A DNA stretch of 64,000 nucleotides. It comes from Salinibacter sp. 10B (GTDB lineage: Bacteria > Bacteroidota > Rhodothermia > Rhodothermales > Salinibacteraceae). A program made the translations under genes and the position numbers. Shown here piece after piece: positions 9,625-19,197 of the stretch (position 1 is its first letter; every line of letters begins with the position of its first letter). The notes below the pieces were generated by a model. It was not told the DNA's origin. It did no database searches and saw nothing but the letters and a program-made list of their open reading frames with translations. Where the stretch lies: NCBI RefSeq assembly GCF_002954405.1, contig NZ_MQWC01000004.1, forward strand, positions 322,318-386,317, written 5' to 3'.

Positions 9625-9658
9625 AAAAAAGCCCACCGTCGGCGAACCGACGGTGGGC
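9625..9658 (-). terminator. Rho-independent terminator of the rhodopsin operon
   Basis: A perfect 12-bp stem (GCCCACCGTCGG / CCGACGGTGGGC) with a 4-nt loop lies at 9631-9658. On the minus strand it is followed by six T (9625-9630). It lies 37 bp after the rhodopsin stop codon. Confidence 0.92.
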
Positions 9659-9695: not shown

Positions 9696-10520
9696 TTAAG
9701 CACCAGCAGTCACCGGCTCCGCATATTCATCCACGTCAAAGCCTTCTTCGATGGACTTCGCGCGGGCGATGTTGTAAATCAGAACTCCGTATCCGGCCTT
9801 CGCCAGGACATCAGCAATGGTGTATCCGACCTGGATGGCAACGATGGTGCCCGGCGTTTCCGTCGGGTATCCACTGAAGGCCATCGGGACCATGTACACG
9901 ATGGGGTAAAAGCCCCAGGTGAAGAGCAGGAGCAGGCGGGCATTGCCAAGGAGAGTGGCCACCTCGCTCGACTGCTTTTGGATCGTGTCCCCTAGCTCAG
10001 TGAACAACACGTAGAGCAAATAGAGGAACGGAAGCGTGCTGAGAAATCCCCAAAAACCGCGGGTGCCGAAGAAGCTGGCGTCGCCGCTGATCTCGCCCGG
10101 ATAGCCGAGCGCGATCATTAGCGCAGCCGCAAAGCCGAGCTTGAAGGCGGTCCAGCCACTTTCTCCCTTTGGTAGGTCCATTACGAGTACCAACTCTACC
10201 ACTAGAAGGGGGACGGTAAGCAGCCAGTCCACGTAGCGGTAGGCATCGTTAAAGGGATCCCCAGAGGGCTCATAAGCCCCCATCGATTGGTTGAGCGCGT
10301 ACGCGCCTTCCCAACTGTTGAAAATGCGGAAGTAGTGATACCCAGCAATGAAGACAACAAGCGCCGACACCATCATCGAAATTCGATACTTCGGCGCGAG
10401 ATTCTTCTGGGCCATCACGAAGAAGACGAACGCCGCTGCCATCGTCGCAACGGTAAACGAAAACATATTGTACACCAGCGAAAACTGCGCTGGAGACAGA
10501 GTAGGAAGTTCCTGTAGCAT
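9696..10520 (-). CDS. Xanthorhodopsin-type light-driven proton pump
   Basis: A seven-helix retinal protein of 274 residues that pumps protons outward in light. Helix C (YRYVDWLLTVPLLVVEL) has Asp98, Thr102 and Glu109, the DTE triplet of outward H+ pumps. His62 (GYHYFR) matches the His of the xanthorhodopsin/proteorhodopsin Asp-His pair. Lys241 (DVLAKAGYG) is the Schiff-base lysine. Gly158 (GFWGFLST) occupies the place of the bulky Trp found in bacteriorhodopsin; this opening is what lets a ketocarotenoid antenna bind in xanthorhodopsin. It is the last gene of an operon with two carotenoid genes, which supports antenna use. A strong Shine-Dalgarno precedes the ATG. Confidence 0.95.
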   Translation of the reverse strand: MLQELPTLSPAQFSLVYNMFSFTVATMAAAFVFFVMAQKNLAPKYRISMMVSALVVFIAGYHYFRIFNSWEGAYALNQSMGAYEPSGDPFNDAYRYVDWLLTVPLLVVELVLVMDLPKGESGWTAFKLGFAAALMIALGYPGEISGDASFFGTRGFWGFLSTLPFLYLLYVLFTELGDTIQKQSSEVATLLGNARLLLLFTWGFYPIVYMVPMAFSGYPTETPGTIVAIQVGYTIADVLAKAGYGVLIYNIARAKSIEEGFDVDEYAEPVTAGA

Positions 10521-14337: not shown

Positions 14338-15558
14338 ATGGATCTCTTCAATCGTGATGAACTGCGACGCCTCGCGGAGTTGCAGGACGACGTTTGCATT
14401 TCTCTGTATCTGCCGACGTACCGCAACGAGTCGGACTGGTCGCAGAACACGACTCGACTGAAGAATTTGCTCGGGGAAGCCCGAGACCAGCTCCGCAATC
14501 AGGACTACCGAGAGGACCTGATCGACGAGATCCTCGCGGATGCACGGCAGCTCCTCGATCGTCCCGGGTTTTGGCGACAAAGTATTGGGGACGGGCTCGC
14601 AGTCTTCATCACGCCGGAGACGACCGAGCGCTTCCGACTACCGCTCTCGTTTGATGAAATTGCTATTGTCGGCGACCGATTTCATCTAAAACCGCTGTTT
14701 CCCCTCATCGCAGCAAACAATCGATTTTACCTGCTCGGCCTCAGCCAGAACGATGTCCGGCTGTATCAGGGCACGCACCAGTCGATCAGCGAGATTCGGC
14801 GGTCAGAAATTCCCTCTAACATCGTCGAAGCAATTCGGCAGTACGAGGAGTCGGAGCAGCAGATTCAGTCGCACGTTCAGAACCGTGCATCCGAACCCGA
14901 TGGACAACGGATGGATGCGGCCTTTCATGGGCACGGGGGGGGAGACGCTGACGACATGAGTGCAGAACCGCAGGATGAATTGAAGCGATTCTTTCGCGAG
15001 GTAGACGAAAGTGTCAGTGACTACATCAGTGGGGAGGAGGTGCCACTTGTGTTGGCCGGCGTATCAGAATACTTGCCGCTATACCGAGAGGTGAACAGCT
15101 ATTCGCACCTTATTGAGGACGACCTTGTGTCCGGCAACCCGGAGTCTCTTGATGTTCAAGAGCTCCACGGCAAAGCATGGTCCATTGTGGAGCCGGTCTT
15201 CCAGGAGCAGGAACGTGACGAGCTGGAGCGATTTGAGCAGCTCTACTACCAGAATGAGGACATGGCCTCCGACGACTTCCACGAAATCATTCCGGGGTGT
15301 GCCTACAGCCGTGTGGACACGCTCTTCGTGCCCGTGGGAGAATACCGGTGGGGCCGGTTCGATGCAGACACCAATACCGTAGAGGTCCACGAATCCCAGC
15401 AGCCGGGTGATGGGGACTTGCTCAATTATGCGGCTGTCTCTGCGTACCTAAATGGTGCAACCGTGCACGCACTCAACCCAGAGAATATGCCGGGAGGACG
15501 GAGCATTGCCGCCACGTTTCGGTATCGTGCGGACGTCTCTGCTGCTGAAAGTGGCTGA
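14338..15558 (+). CDS. Bacterial archaeo-eukaryotic release-factor-like protein (baeRF family)
   Basis: The 406 residues resemble the eRF1-like baeRF proteins predicted to act at the ribosome. The N-terminal half (LFNRDELRRLAELQ, ISLYLPTYRNESDWSQN, RFHLKPLFPLIAANNRFYLL) is characteristic. A glycine-rich loop FHGHGGGDADD, near residues 198-208, sits where release factors carry the GGQ loop, but no GGQ is present. The last third (GVSEYLPLYREVNSY, VPVGEYRWGRFD) fits the C-terminal domain. It has its own terminator and stands alone between kynB and the recombinase region. Family assignment is good; biochemical role is not established. Confidence 0.7.
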   Translation: MDLFNRDELRRLAELQDDVCISLYLPTYRNESDWSQNTTRLKNLLGEARDQLRNQDYREDLIDEILADARQLLDRPGFWRQSIGDGLAVFITPETTERFRLPLSFDEIAIVGDRFHLKPLFPLIAANNRFYLLGLSQNDVRLYQGTHQSISEIRRSEIPSNIVEAIRQYEESEQQIQSHVQNRASEPDGQRMDAAFHGHGGGDADDMSAEPQDELKRFFREVDESVSDYISGEEVPLVLAGVSEYLPLYREVNSYSHLIEDDLVSGNPESLDVQELHGKAWSIVEPVFQEQERDELERFEQLYYQNEDMASDDFHEIIPGCAYSRVDTLFVPVGEYRWGRFDADTNTVEVHESQQPGDGDLLNYAAVSAYLNGATVHALNPENMPGGRSIAATFRYRADVSAAESG

Positions 15559-15588
15559 GCTTCGGGTCCTAAAACAGTCGACAATCCG

Positions 15589-15623
15589 GCCTCCTCTGTG
15601 TACAAACAGGGGAGGCTTTTTTT
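15589..15623 (+). terminator. Rho-independent terminator after the baeRF gene
   Basis: An 11-bp stem (15589-15599 with 15606-15616, one G-T pair) and 6-nt loop are followed by seven T (15617-15623). Confidence 0.9.
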
Positions 15624-15650: not shown

Positions 15651-15678
15651 ATTCATGATAAAACACGTTATCGTAGTT
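15651..15678. repeat. dif-like inverted repeat, site 1 (GATAA-N6-TTATC)
   Basis: Left arm ATTCATGATAA and right arm TTATCGTAGTT flank the 6-bp centre AACACG. The inner five positions are perfectly symmetric and 7 of 11 match overall. The 11-6-11 layout and the inner ATAA/TTAT resemble Xer/dif sites. Confidence 0.45.
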
Positions 15679-15690
15679 CAAGTGACTTGA
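15678..15690. repeat. 13-bp perfect palindrome between the two dif-like sites
   Basis: TCAAGT-G-ACTTGA lies between sites 1 and 2. It could be an operator or an accessory binding site for the recombinase. Confidence 0.4.
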
Positions 15691-15709
15691 CCAGGATGGT
15701 CGTATCTGT

Positions 15710-15737
15710 TTTATTGATAAAAGAGGTTATCAATAGA
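15710..15737. repeat. dif-like inverted repeat, site 2
   Basis: Left arm TTTATTGATAA and right arm TTATCAATAGA are complementary at 10 of 11 positions around the 6-bp centre AAGAGG. The site ends 3 bp before the start codon of the first recombinase and has the same inner GATAA/TTATC as site 1, 59 bp away. Confidence 0.6.
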
Positions 15738-15740
15738 TAG

Positions 15741-16646
15741 ATGGTGCGCGCCATGCCCACTCTCAGCAATTTTTTGAGTGAGTTCGACTCCAAGCATACG
15801 CGACGAGCCTATCGAACGGATCTCCATCGGTTTTTGCGGGAAATGGAGATGGAGGCCGATGCGGCCGATTTCGCGCAGATCGACACCAAAGAGATTGAGG
15901 CGTTTCTTGGCACACTTAAGGAGGAGGGCTTGTCAACCTCGACAATTCGGCGACGAATGGCGGCCGTGCGTCGCTTTTTCGACTGGCTCGTCTCGATGGG
16001 GCATTTGTCTAATAACCCGTGTCGGGCGGCCTCCCTGACTGTATCAGCGTCCGAGGAGAAGGCACAGTCGCCCGCTGTTCTGACAAAAGAGGATCTCCGC
16101 GCGCTTCAACGCGCTGCGGACGACAATACACGGACTGGGACGCGCGATCGAGCGCTCGTTCTGCTGATTGTGTACGGGGCCCTTCGCCGAAGCGAGGTTG
16201 CCTCGCTTCACCTGGAGGATGTCCGACCGTTAGGTCGACACTGGGTCATCGATTTGCCTCGACGAGGCCAAGTGCCGGGAGGCTACATCAAAATTCCGGA
16301 GCGAGGAGCCGAGGCTGTACAGGATCTGGTTGAGGTCTACGGCGAAGAAACCGGTCCTCTCTGGCGATCCTTCAGCAATCGAAATTGGGGAGAACAGATG
16401 AGCCCGGATGCGTTGTACAAACGGGTTCGACAGTTAGGCAAAAAGGCAAACCTCGAGAACGTGGACATCCAGACGCTTCGCCGCTCCGCGTTACATTTAG
16501 CGTCGGATGCAGGAGCATCTCTCGAACAAATTCGCGACCATGCCCGACTCCAACGCGGGACGTCAGCGGTAGCGTATACTGGTGACACCTCGGAAGCCTC
16601 TCGACTACAGTCAACCGCAGTGGACTTCCTGGAAATAGATGTTTAG
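15741..16646 (+). CDS. Tyrosine recombinase, XerC/D-like, with atypical active site
   Basis: A site-specific recombinase of 301 residues, the length of XerC/D. The SAM-like core-binding domain spans about 5-100 (TRRAYRTDLHRFL, STSTIRRRMAAVRRFFDWL) and the catalytic domain 110-301. Arg149 (GALRRSEVASL), Arg247 (QTLRRSALHL), His267 (IRDHARLQ) and nucleophile Tyr279 (AVAYTG) are visible. The usual His of H-x-x-R is Gln244, so the active site is altered. The start codon lies directly behind dif-like site 2, and a perfect 11-6-11 repeat follows the gene. A second recombinase is encoded 152 bp downstream. It may be a partner subunit or an accessory protein. Confidence 0.85.
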   Translation: MVRAMPTLSNFLSEFDSKHTRRAYRTDLHRFLREMEMEADAADFAQIDTKEIEAFLGTLKEEGLSTSTIRRRMAAVRRFFDWLVSMGHLSNNPCRAASLTVSASEEKAQSPAVLTKEDLRALQRAADDNTRTGTRDRALVLLIVYGALRRSEVASLHLEDVRPLGRHWVIDLPRRGQVPGGYIKIPERGAEAVQDLVEVYGEETGPLWRSFSNRNWGEQMSPDALYKRVRQLGKKANLENVDIQTLRRSALHLASDAGASLEQIRDHARLQRGTSAVAYTGDTSEASRLQSTAVDFLEIDV

Positions 16647-16682
16647 ACACACAACCTGGTTCCTCTATCCGGCGTCTTGGCG

Positions 16683-16710
16683 ACGAAACAAAATAAACGT
16701 TTTGTTTCGT
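16683..16710. repeat. dif-like perfect inverted repeat, site 3 (11-6-11)
   Basis: Arms ACGAAACAAAA (16683-16693) and TTTTGTTTCGT (16700-16710) are perfectly complementary around the centre TAAACG. The 28-bp geometry equals that of Xer recombination sites. It lies in the gap between the two recombinase genes. The AT-rich stem with no trailing T-run argues against a terminator. Confidence 0.65.
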
Positions 16711-16798
16711 TCTCTCTTAGAGACTGCTTGCTCGTTATGGTCGTCCACGCACACGGCCTCCGTCTCTCTTTTCCGTCTTCTTTACGTGAATCCTCGTC

Positions 16799-17887
16799 AT
16801 GCCTGACCCTGATTCCCAAAATACGAAGGTGCCCACCTCGCCGGGGTCCACTGACAAAATCACTACGACGGAAGATGCTCATCGCGACCCTGAGCGTCTT
16901 CCATACAATGCTCCGGACGATGGGCAAAGTGCGATTACGTCCGACCAAACCCTCGTGCGCCGATGGCTTGCCGAAAAAAGTTCGGGCACGCAGGAAGAGT
17001 ATGCGCGCGACCTTGAGCGATTCGTAGACTTTGTCGACCTGCCACTTCGGTACGTCACGCTCGGCCATCTCCAGGAGTACCGGGAGCATCTTGCAGATCA
17101 GGGATATGCTCCCTCCACCCAAAAACGAAAGCTTTCGTCAATCAAGAGCATCTTTACGTTTGGTACGAAGCTCCGATATTTTGCTCATAACGTAGGAGCT
17201 GCTCTTTCGACTCCGCAGGCTCGAGAAAAACGGGCAGAGCGAATCCTCTCCGAGGCGGACCTGTGGGCGATCCTTCGTGATGAGAAAGACCTTCGCAATC
17301 ACGTTCTGCTTCGGCTGTTTTACGCGTCTGGCGGACGCGTTTCGGATGTTGTAGATCTTCGATGGCGGGATTTAAAGGATCGCCCCGATCTGGAAGGCCC
17401 AGATGGACGCCCGGGTGGACAAATCACATTTTACGGCAAGGGCGACAAAACACGATCCGTGACCTTGTACAGTAAGGTATGGGCACTCATCGTGCGGCTT
17501 CACGAAGAAGAGTCCGAAGATGGGTATGGAGCGGCCGACGATCCCGTCTTTCGCTCTCAAAAAGGTGGAGGGCTTTCTCGAACACAGATCTGGCGAATTG
17601 TGAAGAAGGCAGCGACCCGTGCCAGCGTGAAACTGACAGAAAAGACGCGTTCGGACGGCGTCGTCAAGCGGGATGAAGACGGGAATCCAATTATGACCTC
17701 TCAGGTGTCTCCCCACTGGTTTCGGCATGCTCACGCCTCGCATGCTCTCCAGAAGGGTGCGGATCTGGAACTAGTACGTGAGACCCTTGGACATGAGAGC
17801 ATCGAGACCACCAAAACCTATCTCCACGCTCACCCCGGCAAGTCGTCCTCCTATTATGTGGACGATGCTCCAGACTATGATGGGTAA
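16799..17887 (+). CDS. Tyrosine recombinase/integrase, complete active site
   Basis: A 362-residue tyrosine recombinase. The N-terminal 45 residues are a polar extension; the core-binding domain covers about 48-140 (TQEEYARDLERFVDF, STQKRKLSSIKSIFTFG). The catalytic domain carries Arg180 (GGRVSDVVDLRW), the beta-hairpin lysine region GKGDKTR (214-217), His306 and Arg309 (SPHWFRHAHASHAL), His332 (LGHESIETT) and nucleophile Tyr341 (KTYLH). An insertion of about 20 residues (VKLTEKTRSDGVVKRDEDGN) precedes box II. It follows another recombinase and a perfect 11-6-11 repeat. No tRNA or att-type direct repeat was seen beside it, so a resident inversion or resolution role is as plausible as integration. 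Confidence 0.92.
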   Translation: MPDPDSQNTKVPTSPGSTDKITTTEDAHRDPERLPYNAPDDGQSAITSDQTLVRRWLAEKSSGTQEEYARDLERFVDFVDLPLRYVTLGHLQEYREHLADQGYAPSTQKRKLSSIKSIFTFGTKLRYFAHNVGAALSTPQAREKRAERILSEADLWAILRDEKDLRNHVLLRLFYASGGRVSDVVDLRWRDLKDRPDLEGPDGRPGGQITFYGKGDKTRSVTLYSKVWALIVRLHEEESEDGYGAADDPVFRSQKGGGLSRTQIWRIVKKAATRASVKLTEKTRSDGVVKRDEDGNPIMTSQVSPHWFRHAHASHALQKGADLELVRETLGHESIETTKTYLHAHPGKSSSYYVDDAPDYDG

Positions 17888-17894
17888 GATCGAC

Positions 17895-18815
17895 TCACTT
17901 CTTCTTTGCTAATACATCCATTTGGTGAGCGATATATATGAGCTCACGATGATCGATTTGCTGACGCCGGGTCTCGATCCAGCGTCGAAAATCATTCGAA
18001 TCGATTTCTGAATGACCAGATAGCTCTTCTTCAATAAAGTGTATAATATGATGCAAAAAATAAGCCTCTTCACTTGGGTATGCGTTGCCTCGTGGAAACA
18101 CGACCCAGTCCGAAGATCCGGCCGATAGCACCTCATTATCCATTTGGCGGAGAGTTGTAAGCAGTCGACGACCCGTATAGGCGCGAGGTCCTTCCTCGCT
18201 GCTGTCGGGCGTCATGCTATTATGGTAGAGTCGCTCGATTTTCTCGTCGAGTTGGGGGGAAACCACAGGTTCAAATCCGGTGACTCCATCGAAGTGAATT
18301 GGCAAATACCAGAGCCCCCTGGGTGTCAGTAGTGGACGAAGAGACGACAATATATTCGACAAGTCAAAAAGGTCGAGGACAGCTTGAGCAATGACGACAT
18401 CGAATAAGGCTATCTTAGAATCCTCTGCGTACCTGTAGATGTCGTCTTTGACGAGCGTGAGTCGGACGTCGAAGTGTGCATCAGACAGGCGAACCCCATC
18501 CTCCGTCGAGGAGATCTGGTATCCCTGCTCCCGCCCCCACTTGGATACGTTTTGACGGGTCGCTTGGATATTGTCCTGTTCCCGATCGACAAGCGTGTAT
18601 CGGAGAGAATGGAACCTAGTCTCGTCGAGCGCCTCAACGACCCGCTCAAAGGTGGCCCCGACGCCCCCTCCCACCTCCAAAATTCGGAGCGATGAAGAAT
18701 CATCAGGAAGAGCCTCCAAAAAGTCGGTCCAGACCTGGCGATTTAACGCCCGGGCGTCAATGGACCGCTTTGCATTGAGGTATCGAGGATATGAATACGA
18801 GTCAGGTTCAATCAC
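17895..18815 (-). CDS. Class I SAM-dependent methyltransferase in pterin-like operon
   Basis: A 306-residue predicted methyltransferase. Motif I is LRILEVGGGVGATFERVVE; LFDVVIAQAVLDLFDL fits motif IV, and a post-core region (HHIIHFIEEELSGH) follows. The GTG start at 18815 is chosen because AAGGAG precedes it by 6 nt and the start overlaps the stop of the PTPS-like gene by 8 bp, a typical coupled junction; a longer frame would overlap that gene by much more. It is the last gene of a four-gene operon. The substrate is unknown; by context it may methylate a GTP-derived heterocycle. Confidence 0.8.
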   Translation of the reverse strand: MIEPDSYSYPRYLNAKRSIDARALNRQVWTDFLEALPDDSSSLRILEVGGGVGATFERVVEALDETRFHSLRYTLVDREQDNIQATRQNVSKWGREQGYQISSTEDGVRLSDAHFDVRLTLVKDDIYRYAEDSKIALFDVVIAQAVLDLFDLSNILSSLRPLLTPRGLWYLPIHFDGVTGFEPVVSPQLDEKIERLYHNSMTPDSSEEGPRAYTGRRLLTTLRQMDNEVLSAGSSDWVVFPRGNAYPSEEAYFLHHIIHFIEEELSGHSEIDSNDFRRWIETRRQQIDHRELIYIAHQMDVLAKKK

Positions 18816-19197
18816 TGTGGACTCCTTCGGTGGAATACGATGCCCAGGCTTCCTCATCCTCCCAAATCCGAACCGTGATTCCGGTTGTTGCGTCGAGAGA
18901 CAAGCGGTCCTGGAGCGAGATACAAACGATTCGAGAGAAGTGTTCGATGCTGGGATTTCGGCCCTCAAACTCTGGGAGATCATTCAGGGTCGAATCTCGA
19001 TAACGGGCAACGATCTGGTCCAGGGCCTCCTCCACGTCAACAATATCAACAAGATATCCATGGTCATTTAGCTCTTTTCCTTTTAGAAGAACTTCGACCC
19101 CAAAATGATGGGAATGCCACTCATTCTCAGGGCCGCAATCAGGAACCGTGAGGTAGTGTTGCGCGACAAAGTCGCGATGTACACGGAGGGTATACAT
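18808..19197 (-). CDS. 6-pyruvoyl-tetrahydropterin synthase/QueD-like protein, altered catalytic dyad
   Basis: A 129-residue T-fold protein of the PTPS/QueD family. The zinc histidines are recognisable: His14 (FVAQHYL) and the HSH at 28-30, with the family Cys at 21. The conserved Asn-Pro and Glu of the substrate pocket appear in RNPSIEHFSR and VRIWEDEEAW. However, the stretch where QueD has the catalytic Asp-His pair (LDHxxLN) reads YRDSTLND here, so the dyad is changed. It lies 6 bp after the dehydrogenase gene and overlaps the methyltransferase start. A canonical QueD reaction is therefore doubtful; a related pterin-type step is inferred. Confidence 0.78.
   Translation of the reverse strand: MYTLRVHRDFVAQHYLTVPDCGPENEWHSHHFGVEVLLKGKELNDHGYLVDIVDVEEALDQIVARYRDSTLNDLPEFEGRNPSIEHFSRIVCISLQDRLSLDATTGITVRIWEDEEAWASYSTEGVHSD
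18822..18827 (-). promoter_or_regulatory. Ribosome binding site that sets the methyltransferase start
   Basis: AAGGAG on the minus strand, inside the end of the PTPS-like gene, lies 6 nt from the GTG start at 18815. Confidence 0.65.

Follow-up and report, generated by a model that had tools for sequence, protein, structure and literature searches.

A likely chromosome dimer-resolution module at the replication terminus of Salinibacter, with a plasmid-type recombinase beside a probably inactive Xer-like predecessor

The window, i.e., the whole 64,000-nucleotide stretch of Salinibacter sp. 10B that we analyzed, carries two neighboring genes for Xer-type tyrosine recombinases, R1 (15741..16646, + strand, 301 aa, start possibly at 15753) and R2 (16799..17887, + strand, 362 aa), together with three dif-like inverted repeats, S1, S2, and S3. 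We found that this locus is the replication terminus of the chromosome. It very likely constitutes a module for chromosome dimer resolution at the terminus, in which an older system based on R1 was superseded by a plasmid-type recombinase, R2, with its site S3, while the dead R1 was kept.

The distance from dnaA to R1 amounted to 0.46 to 0.53 of a chromosome turn in all eight testable genomes (the present one, G000, and G003, G010, G026, G031, G035, G036, and G040), the value for G036 being approximate because this genome is not closed. When two dnaA genes were present, the copy at the skew minimum (G003 and G000) or its counterpart (G010) served as the origin marker. Such pairs were seen in genomes of the Salinibacter group (G000:C4:414481 and 2391851; also G003, G004, G007, G010, and G016), and one dnaA of each pair lay within about 75 to 410 kb of the terminus locus. 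In 11 of 14 genomes (G000, G001, G003, G004, G007, G009, G010, G031, G033, G035, and G040), the GC skew switched sign at the locus, going from plus to minus; it was weak and showed no distinct switch in G014, G016, and G036. The cumulative skew of the present genome reached its maximum inside R1, between S2 and S3 and less than 1 kb from S2, and that of G035 reached it 23 bp from the site. S2 and S3 are 1 kb apart, so the skew is unable to tell which of them is used.

All three repeats span 28 bp at the coordinates given by the first-pass annotation, and none is assigned a strand. S2 (15710..15737; TTTATTGATAA-AAGAGG-TTATCAATAGA) is a dif-like 11-6-11 palindrome of the R1 type that lies directly before R1, with arms pairing at 10/11 positions. 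S3 (16683..16710; ACGAAACAAAA-TAAACG-TTTTGTTTCGT), the proposed active dif of the chromosome, is of the R2 type and perfectly palindromic (11/11). S1 (15651..15678; ATTCATGATAA-AACACG-TTATCGTAGTT), 59 bp upstream of S2, is an imperfect site of the R1 type with an exact GATAA-N6-TTATC core, but its arms pair at 7/11 positions only; the annotation's observation is otherwise confirmed. A second upstream site was also present in the relatives L018, L019, L022, and L032. An intrinsic terminator (15588..15617, + strand) lies between the preceding gene and the segment with S1/S2 and R1, and a promoter scan found no sigma-70 promoter near S1/S2.

A search of the window for 11-N6-11 palindromes pairing at 10/11 or more positions returned four: S2, S3, one at 15589, which is the intrinsic terminator, and one at 9631, which is G+C-rich and resembles a terminator stem. 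A rhodopsin-like gene, as judged by sequence, occupies 9696-10520, beside likely carotenoid genes. In a Markov simulation, such palindromes averaged 0.5 per window, and none reached 11/11. A chance origin of the sites is excluded mainly because they are conserved beside orthologues, not by the palindromes alone. We failed to find any other copy of S2 on the chromosome (up to 2 mismatches in 14 specified bases) or any further copy of S3 anywhere in the genome (up to 3 mismatches); each site type adjoins its own recombinase gene and is absent elsewhere on the chromosome. Two more R1-type GATAA-N6-TTATC sites occur in the same genome on smaller, probably plasmid, contigs, at L074 (G000:C9:12728) and L073 (G000:C5:275802).

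Conservation of the repeats beside orthologues, a check proposed by the first-pass annotation, was borne out, as the core of S2 is kept upstream of R1 across Rhodothermales. An exact GATAA-N6-TTATC was found within 2 kb upstream of R1 in 22 of 34 loci, all drawn from named genome records and each having no less than 1 kb of sequence upstream, some of these records being genomes also included in the R1 survey. In all, 383 kb around R1 held 25 such sites, versus zero in 800 kb taken from distant parts of four genomes. The outer arms of the R1 site vary by lineage yet stay complementary (114/192 versus 77.5 ± 6.2 after shuffling); the corresponding values for the R2 site were 93/110 versus 80.1 ± 2.8. 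The annotation's proposal of a self-contained module with dif-like geometry, in which sites and recombinases are linked, is supported.

R1 itself, on the other hand, is very probably catalytically dead in this window. Its sequence has changed at three catalytic positions (Lys to Arg174, His to Gln244, and His to Leu270); Arg149, Arg247, and Tyr279 are retained, so that residual activity is not strictly excluded. Tyr279 is lost in the R1 of L016-L022. An AlphaFold model of R1 (pLDDT 82) showed a normal tyrosine-recombinase fold matching XerA, XerH, and Cre. With a dN/dS of 0.15-0.33, dead R1 is subject to purifying selection, though a less strict one than R2 (0.04-0.055) or intact R1 (0.02-0.10). 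R1 here is probably an inactive DNA-binding protein. R1 orthologues elsewhere in the order carry the complete catalytic set, and a complete set conserved together with a site was found for R2 and for R1 outside the Salinibacter clade, but not for R1 here. Both tandem genes do encode tyrosine recombinases as annotated, but R1 lacks catalytic residues and R2 is the complete enzyme (Arg180, Lys214, His306, Arg309, His332, and Tyr341, invariant in 12 relatives), which speaks against the two-recombinase system that had been envisaged. The dead R1s form a single clade (support 0.97), so their association with R2 may be one event. For the search of R1 relatives, the alignment of the active-R1 subset was usable, the full R1 alignment being too poor in conserved stretches. 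No R1 relatives were found in viral contigs.

With R1 probably dead, the palindromes could be only operators through which each recombinase autoregulates its own promoter without recombination, and the R1 sites of the Salinibacter clade indeed lie within about 0-60 bp of the R1 start, down to a few bp, sometimes in two tandem copies with different centers. We consider this unlikely. The site is 0.6-0.7 kb from R1 in Roseithermus and G035, 4.0 kb in L240, and 4.8 kb in Rhodothermus G040; given such spacing in several active-R1 genomes, the site in them is more than just an operator for the promoter. Moreover, the active site of R2 is complete, and operators would leave the position of the locus at the terminus, where it marks the skew switch, unexplained. 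Under the dimer-resolution reading, the dead R1 is most likely kept with its site(s) as a DNA-binding autoregulator, and would regulate its own promoter through S1/S2.

Both recombinases scored far below the profile cut-offs for XerC, XerD, XerS, and archaeal XerA. Against the XerC/XerD equivalogs, with cut-offs of 329.6 and 335.15 bits, R1 reached 90-104 bits and R2 146-162 bits; over the canonical Xer profiles as a whole, the two reached 82-162 bits (cut-offs 279-335), and for the XerS equivalog 24.3 and 42.7 bits, respectively (cut-off 267). By sequence match, R2 was closer to XerD and XerA than to XerH, and R1 had no match to the XerH sequence at E ≤ 0.001. Chain 14 of PDB entry 9i5v, a protein of 401 residues named RaiA, matched both R1 and R2 over recombinase-like regions. 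None of 41 genomes had a match above the cut-off of the canonical Xer profile NF001399, a strict threshold that only 5 of 14 controls pass. A canonical dif with XerC/XerD elsewhere in the genome had been named by the first-pass annotation among the findings that would speak against its reading; we searched for them and recognized no intact XerC/XerD in these genomes. The remaining chromosomal recombinases were the integrase-like L002 and L004, which lacks both arginines, and neither provides a canonical dif/XerCD system. L004 (G000:C4:3345207-3346037) is an Xer-like paralogue present in nearly all genomes examined; in 14 of 14 sequences of its type, Ser/Ala and Thr replace both catalytic arginines, and the Lys, both His, and usually the Tyr are retained. 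The NF001399 survey of Rhodothermus (G026 and G040) showed only an L004-type paralogue and R1. Rhodothermales outside the Salinibacter clade have a catalytically complete R1, the sole intact recombinase that we found associated with the terminus. We found the FtsK gamma domain in 6 of 7 genomes, the present one among them. Taken together, the lack of a recognized intact XerC/XerD, the terminus position, and the conserved sites point to an unconventional, gene-linked Xer/dif system with a single recombinase.

The R2 site has the consensus ACGcAAcaTAA-N6-TTATGTTGCGT, which differs from the R1 site. It precedes R2 in the Salinibacter-clade loci examined and also occurs at the R2-like genes in G027 and G028. 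A third recombinase type, R3, occupies the R2 position in G001 and G012, and the R3 of G015 lies at the terminus as well (0.497 of a turn from dnaA); the R3 site is a CCGATAA-N7-TTATCGG palindrome. Within the plasmid collection, the closest relatives of R2 were cyanobacterial, Bacillus, and Methylorubrum recombinases, and R3 also has plasmid relatives. The plasmid recombinases of the R2 kind (e.g., on Methylorubrum pCMU02 and Gloeothece pP742403) are 37-43% identical to R2, and 4 of the 6 plasmid records examined, with examples from other phyla (Cyanobacteria and Methylorubrum), have a palindrome of the same ACGCAA type as the R2 site 37-69 bp before the R2-like gene. They are plasmid-borne, whereas R2 here is at the chromosome terminus. 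No close relatives of R2 (at least 60% identity) were found in phages, the best match being 34.5% identical.

R1 and R2 are adjacent and codirectional in most Salinibacter genomes, and S. ruber-type genomes have an asymmetric R2 site (ACGGGATCTAA/TTATGTTGCGT), as dif is. Such features would suit a heteromer like XerC/XerD, with R1 as a noncatalytic partner on S1/S2 or S3. This is an even less probable arrangement than operators, since the consensus arms of the R1 and R2 sites differ, the two genes are convergent in G016 with a palindrome of their own each, a recombinase of the R2 type occurs without any R1 in G027, G028, and G038, and other genera have an intact R1 without R2. A single recombinase acting on its own site remains the preferred reading of the module.

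Gene order around the locus is conserved throughout the family. A baeRF-family protein gene (14338..15558, + strand) is the conserved upstream neighbor marking the terminus locus, and a methyltransferase-like gene (17895..18983, − strand) is the conserved downstream neighbor, which directly follows R1 in Longimonas and R2 here. Longimonas has the order baeRF gene, site, R1, methyltransferase-like gene, and PTPS, without R2; in Salinibacter, R2 and its site lie between R1 and the methyltransferase-like gene. A dead R1 was always accompanied by R2 or R3 beside it, whereas genomes with an intact R1 had no R2. A comparison of G003 with G010 showed 95% identity in the flanks but no more than 46-78% in a block of approximately 1.7 kb between them, which starts at the 3′ end of R1, takes in the R2 site, and stops at the 3′ end of R2. 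The synonymous divergence of this pair was 1.7 for R2 versus 0.24 for R1, indicating that R2 and its site were exchanged as one unit between sister species. An interrupted HNH endonuclease ORF lies between R1 and R2 in L022 (G010), inside the exchanged cassette, and this endonuclease might have driven the exchange. The plasmid relatives of R2 and R3 and the exchange of R2 with its site would also fit a genetic switch or a small mobile element carrying the pair, as the first-pass annotation had suggested, or an integrated element, but this is the least credible explanation, highly improbable given a locus with family-wide synteny that is fixed at the chromosome terminus, sites found only beside their own genes with no second S2 or S3 on the chromosome, and central 6 bp that differ between S1 and S2 (AACACG versus AAGAGG), which disfavors a crossover between them. 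We failed to find any mobile element integrated at these sites, which counts against the dimer-resolution reading.

In the dimer-resolution module that we propose, an R2 dimer would bind both arms of S3. Once an odd number of crossovers has given rise to a chromosome dimer, R2 would recombine the sister copies of S3 at the terminus and so return the chromosomes to the monomeric state, probably together with FtsK at the septum; S3 would be the functional dif of the chromosome. R1 with GATAA-N6-TTATC may represent the older, order-wide form of dimer resolution. In the Salinibacter clade, a plasmid-type module (R2 with S3, or R3 with its site in some species) would have been inserted beside R1 and would have taken over. 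R1 may then have lost its active site and been retained under selection along with its site(s), which today lie immediately upstream of the start codon.

The module shares with XerC/XerD-dif a 28-bp 11-6-11 site at the terminus and, in this genome, the FtsK gamma domain; it differs in that no XerC/XerD pair was recognized here. The R2 sites of relatives carry CATAA-N6-TTATG, which is also contained in the dif of E. coli. Single-recombinase, gene-linked systems and order-specific palindromic dif sites are already known (PMC5357621, PMC9765430). XerS/difSL of streptococci and lactococci and XerH/difH of Campylobacter and Helicobacter likewise have one recombinase genetically linked to dif; however, difSL, with 31 bp and an 11-bp center, differs from S2 and S3, as does difH, and a succession of recombinases is not described for these systems (PMC5357621). 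XerL of Legionellales is an order-specific single-recombinase system that was missed by homology searches; compared by description, its dif resembles the present sites in being an intergenic palindrome of about the same length, placed at the GC-skew terminus, with long inverted-repeat arms, but more than 400 kb separate dif from the recombinase in L. pneumophila, and no adjoining dead predecessor is described (PMC9765430). Our search of the literature on the XerS, XerH, and XerL systems found no succession of modules with a dead recombinase retained at the terminus (PMC5357621, PMC9765430), and a literature search for published work on dif in Salinibacter or Rhodothermus returned none. Kono et al. 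reported a predicted dif for 19 of 19 Bacteroidetes, in a main text that names neither Salinibacter nor Rhodothermus (PMC3025954).

These results provide a candidate for the system of chromosome dimer resolution that has been missing for an entire class of bacteria. They also present an apparent handover caught midway, with an Xer protein that seems to have no active site, a plasmid-type successor adjoining it, and recombinase-plus-site swaps between sister species, and R1, judged by its residues, would exemplify the conversion of a recombinase into a DNA-binding protein. A broader idea, which we consider as likely as not, is that the terminus of Rhodothermia is a slot where plasmid-derived modules, each a recombinase with its site, take one another's place time and again, the superseded enzyme being kept as a noncatalytic, sequence-specific terminus-binding or regulatory protein. 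With the present locus, the way in which a coadapted recombinase/site pair with a central role in the cell cycle gets replaced becomes directly testable.
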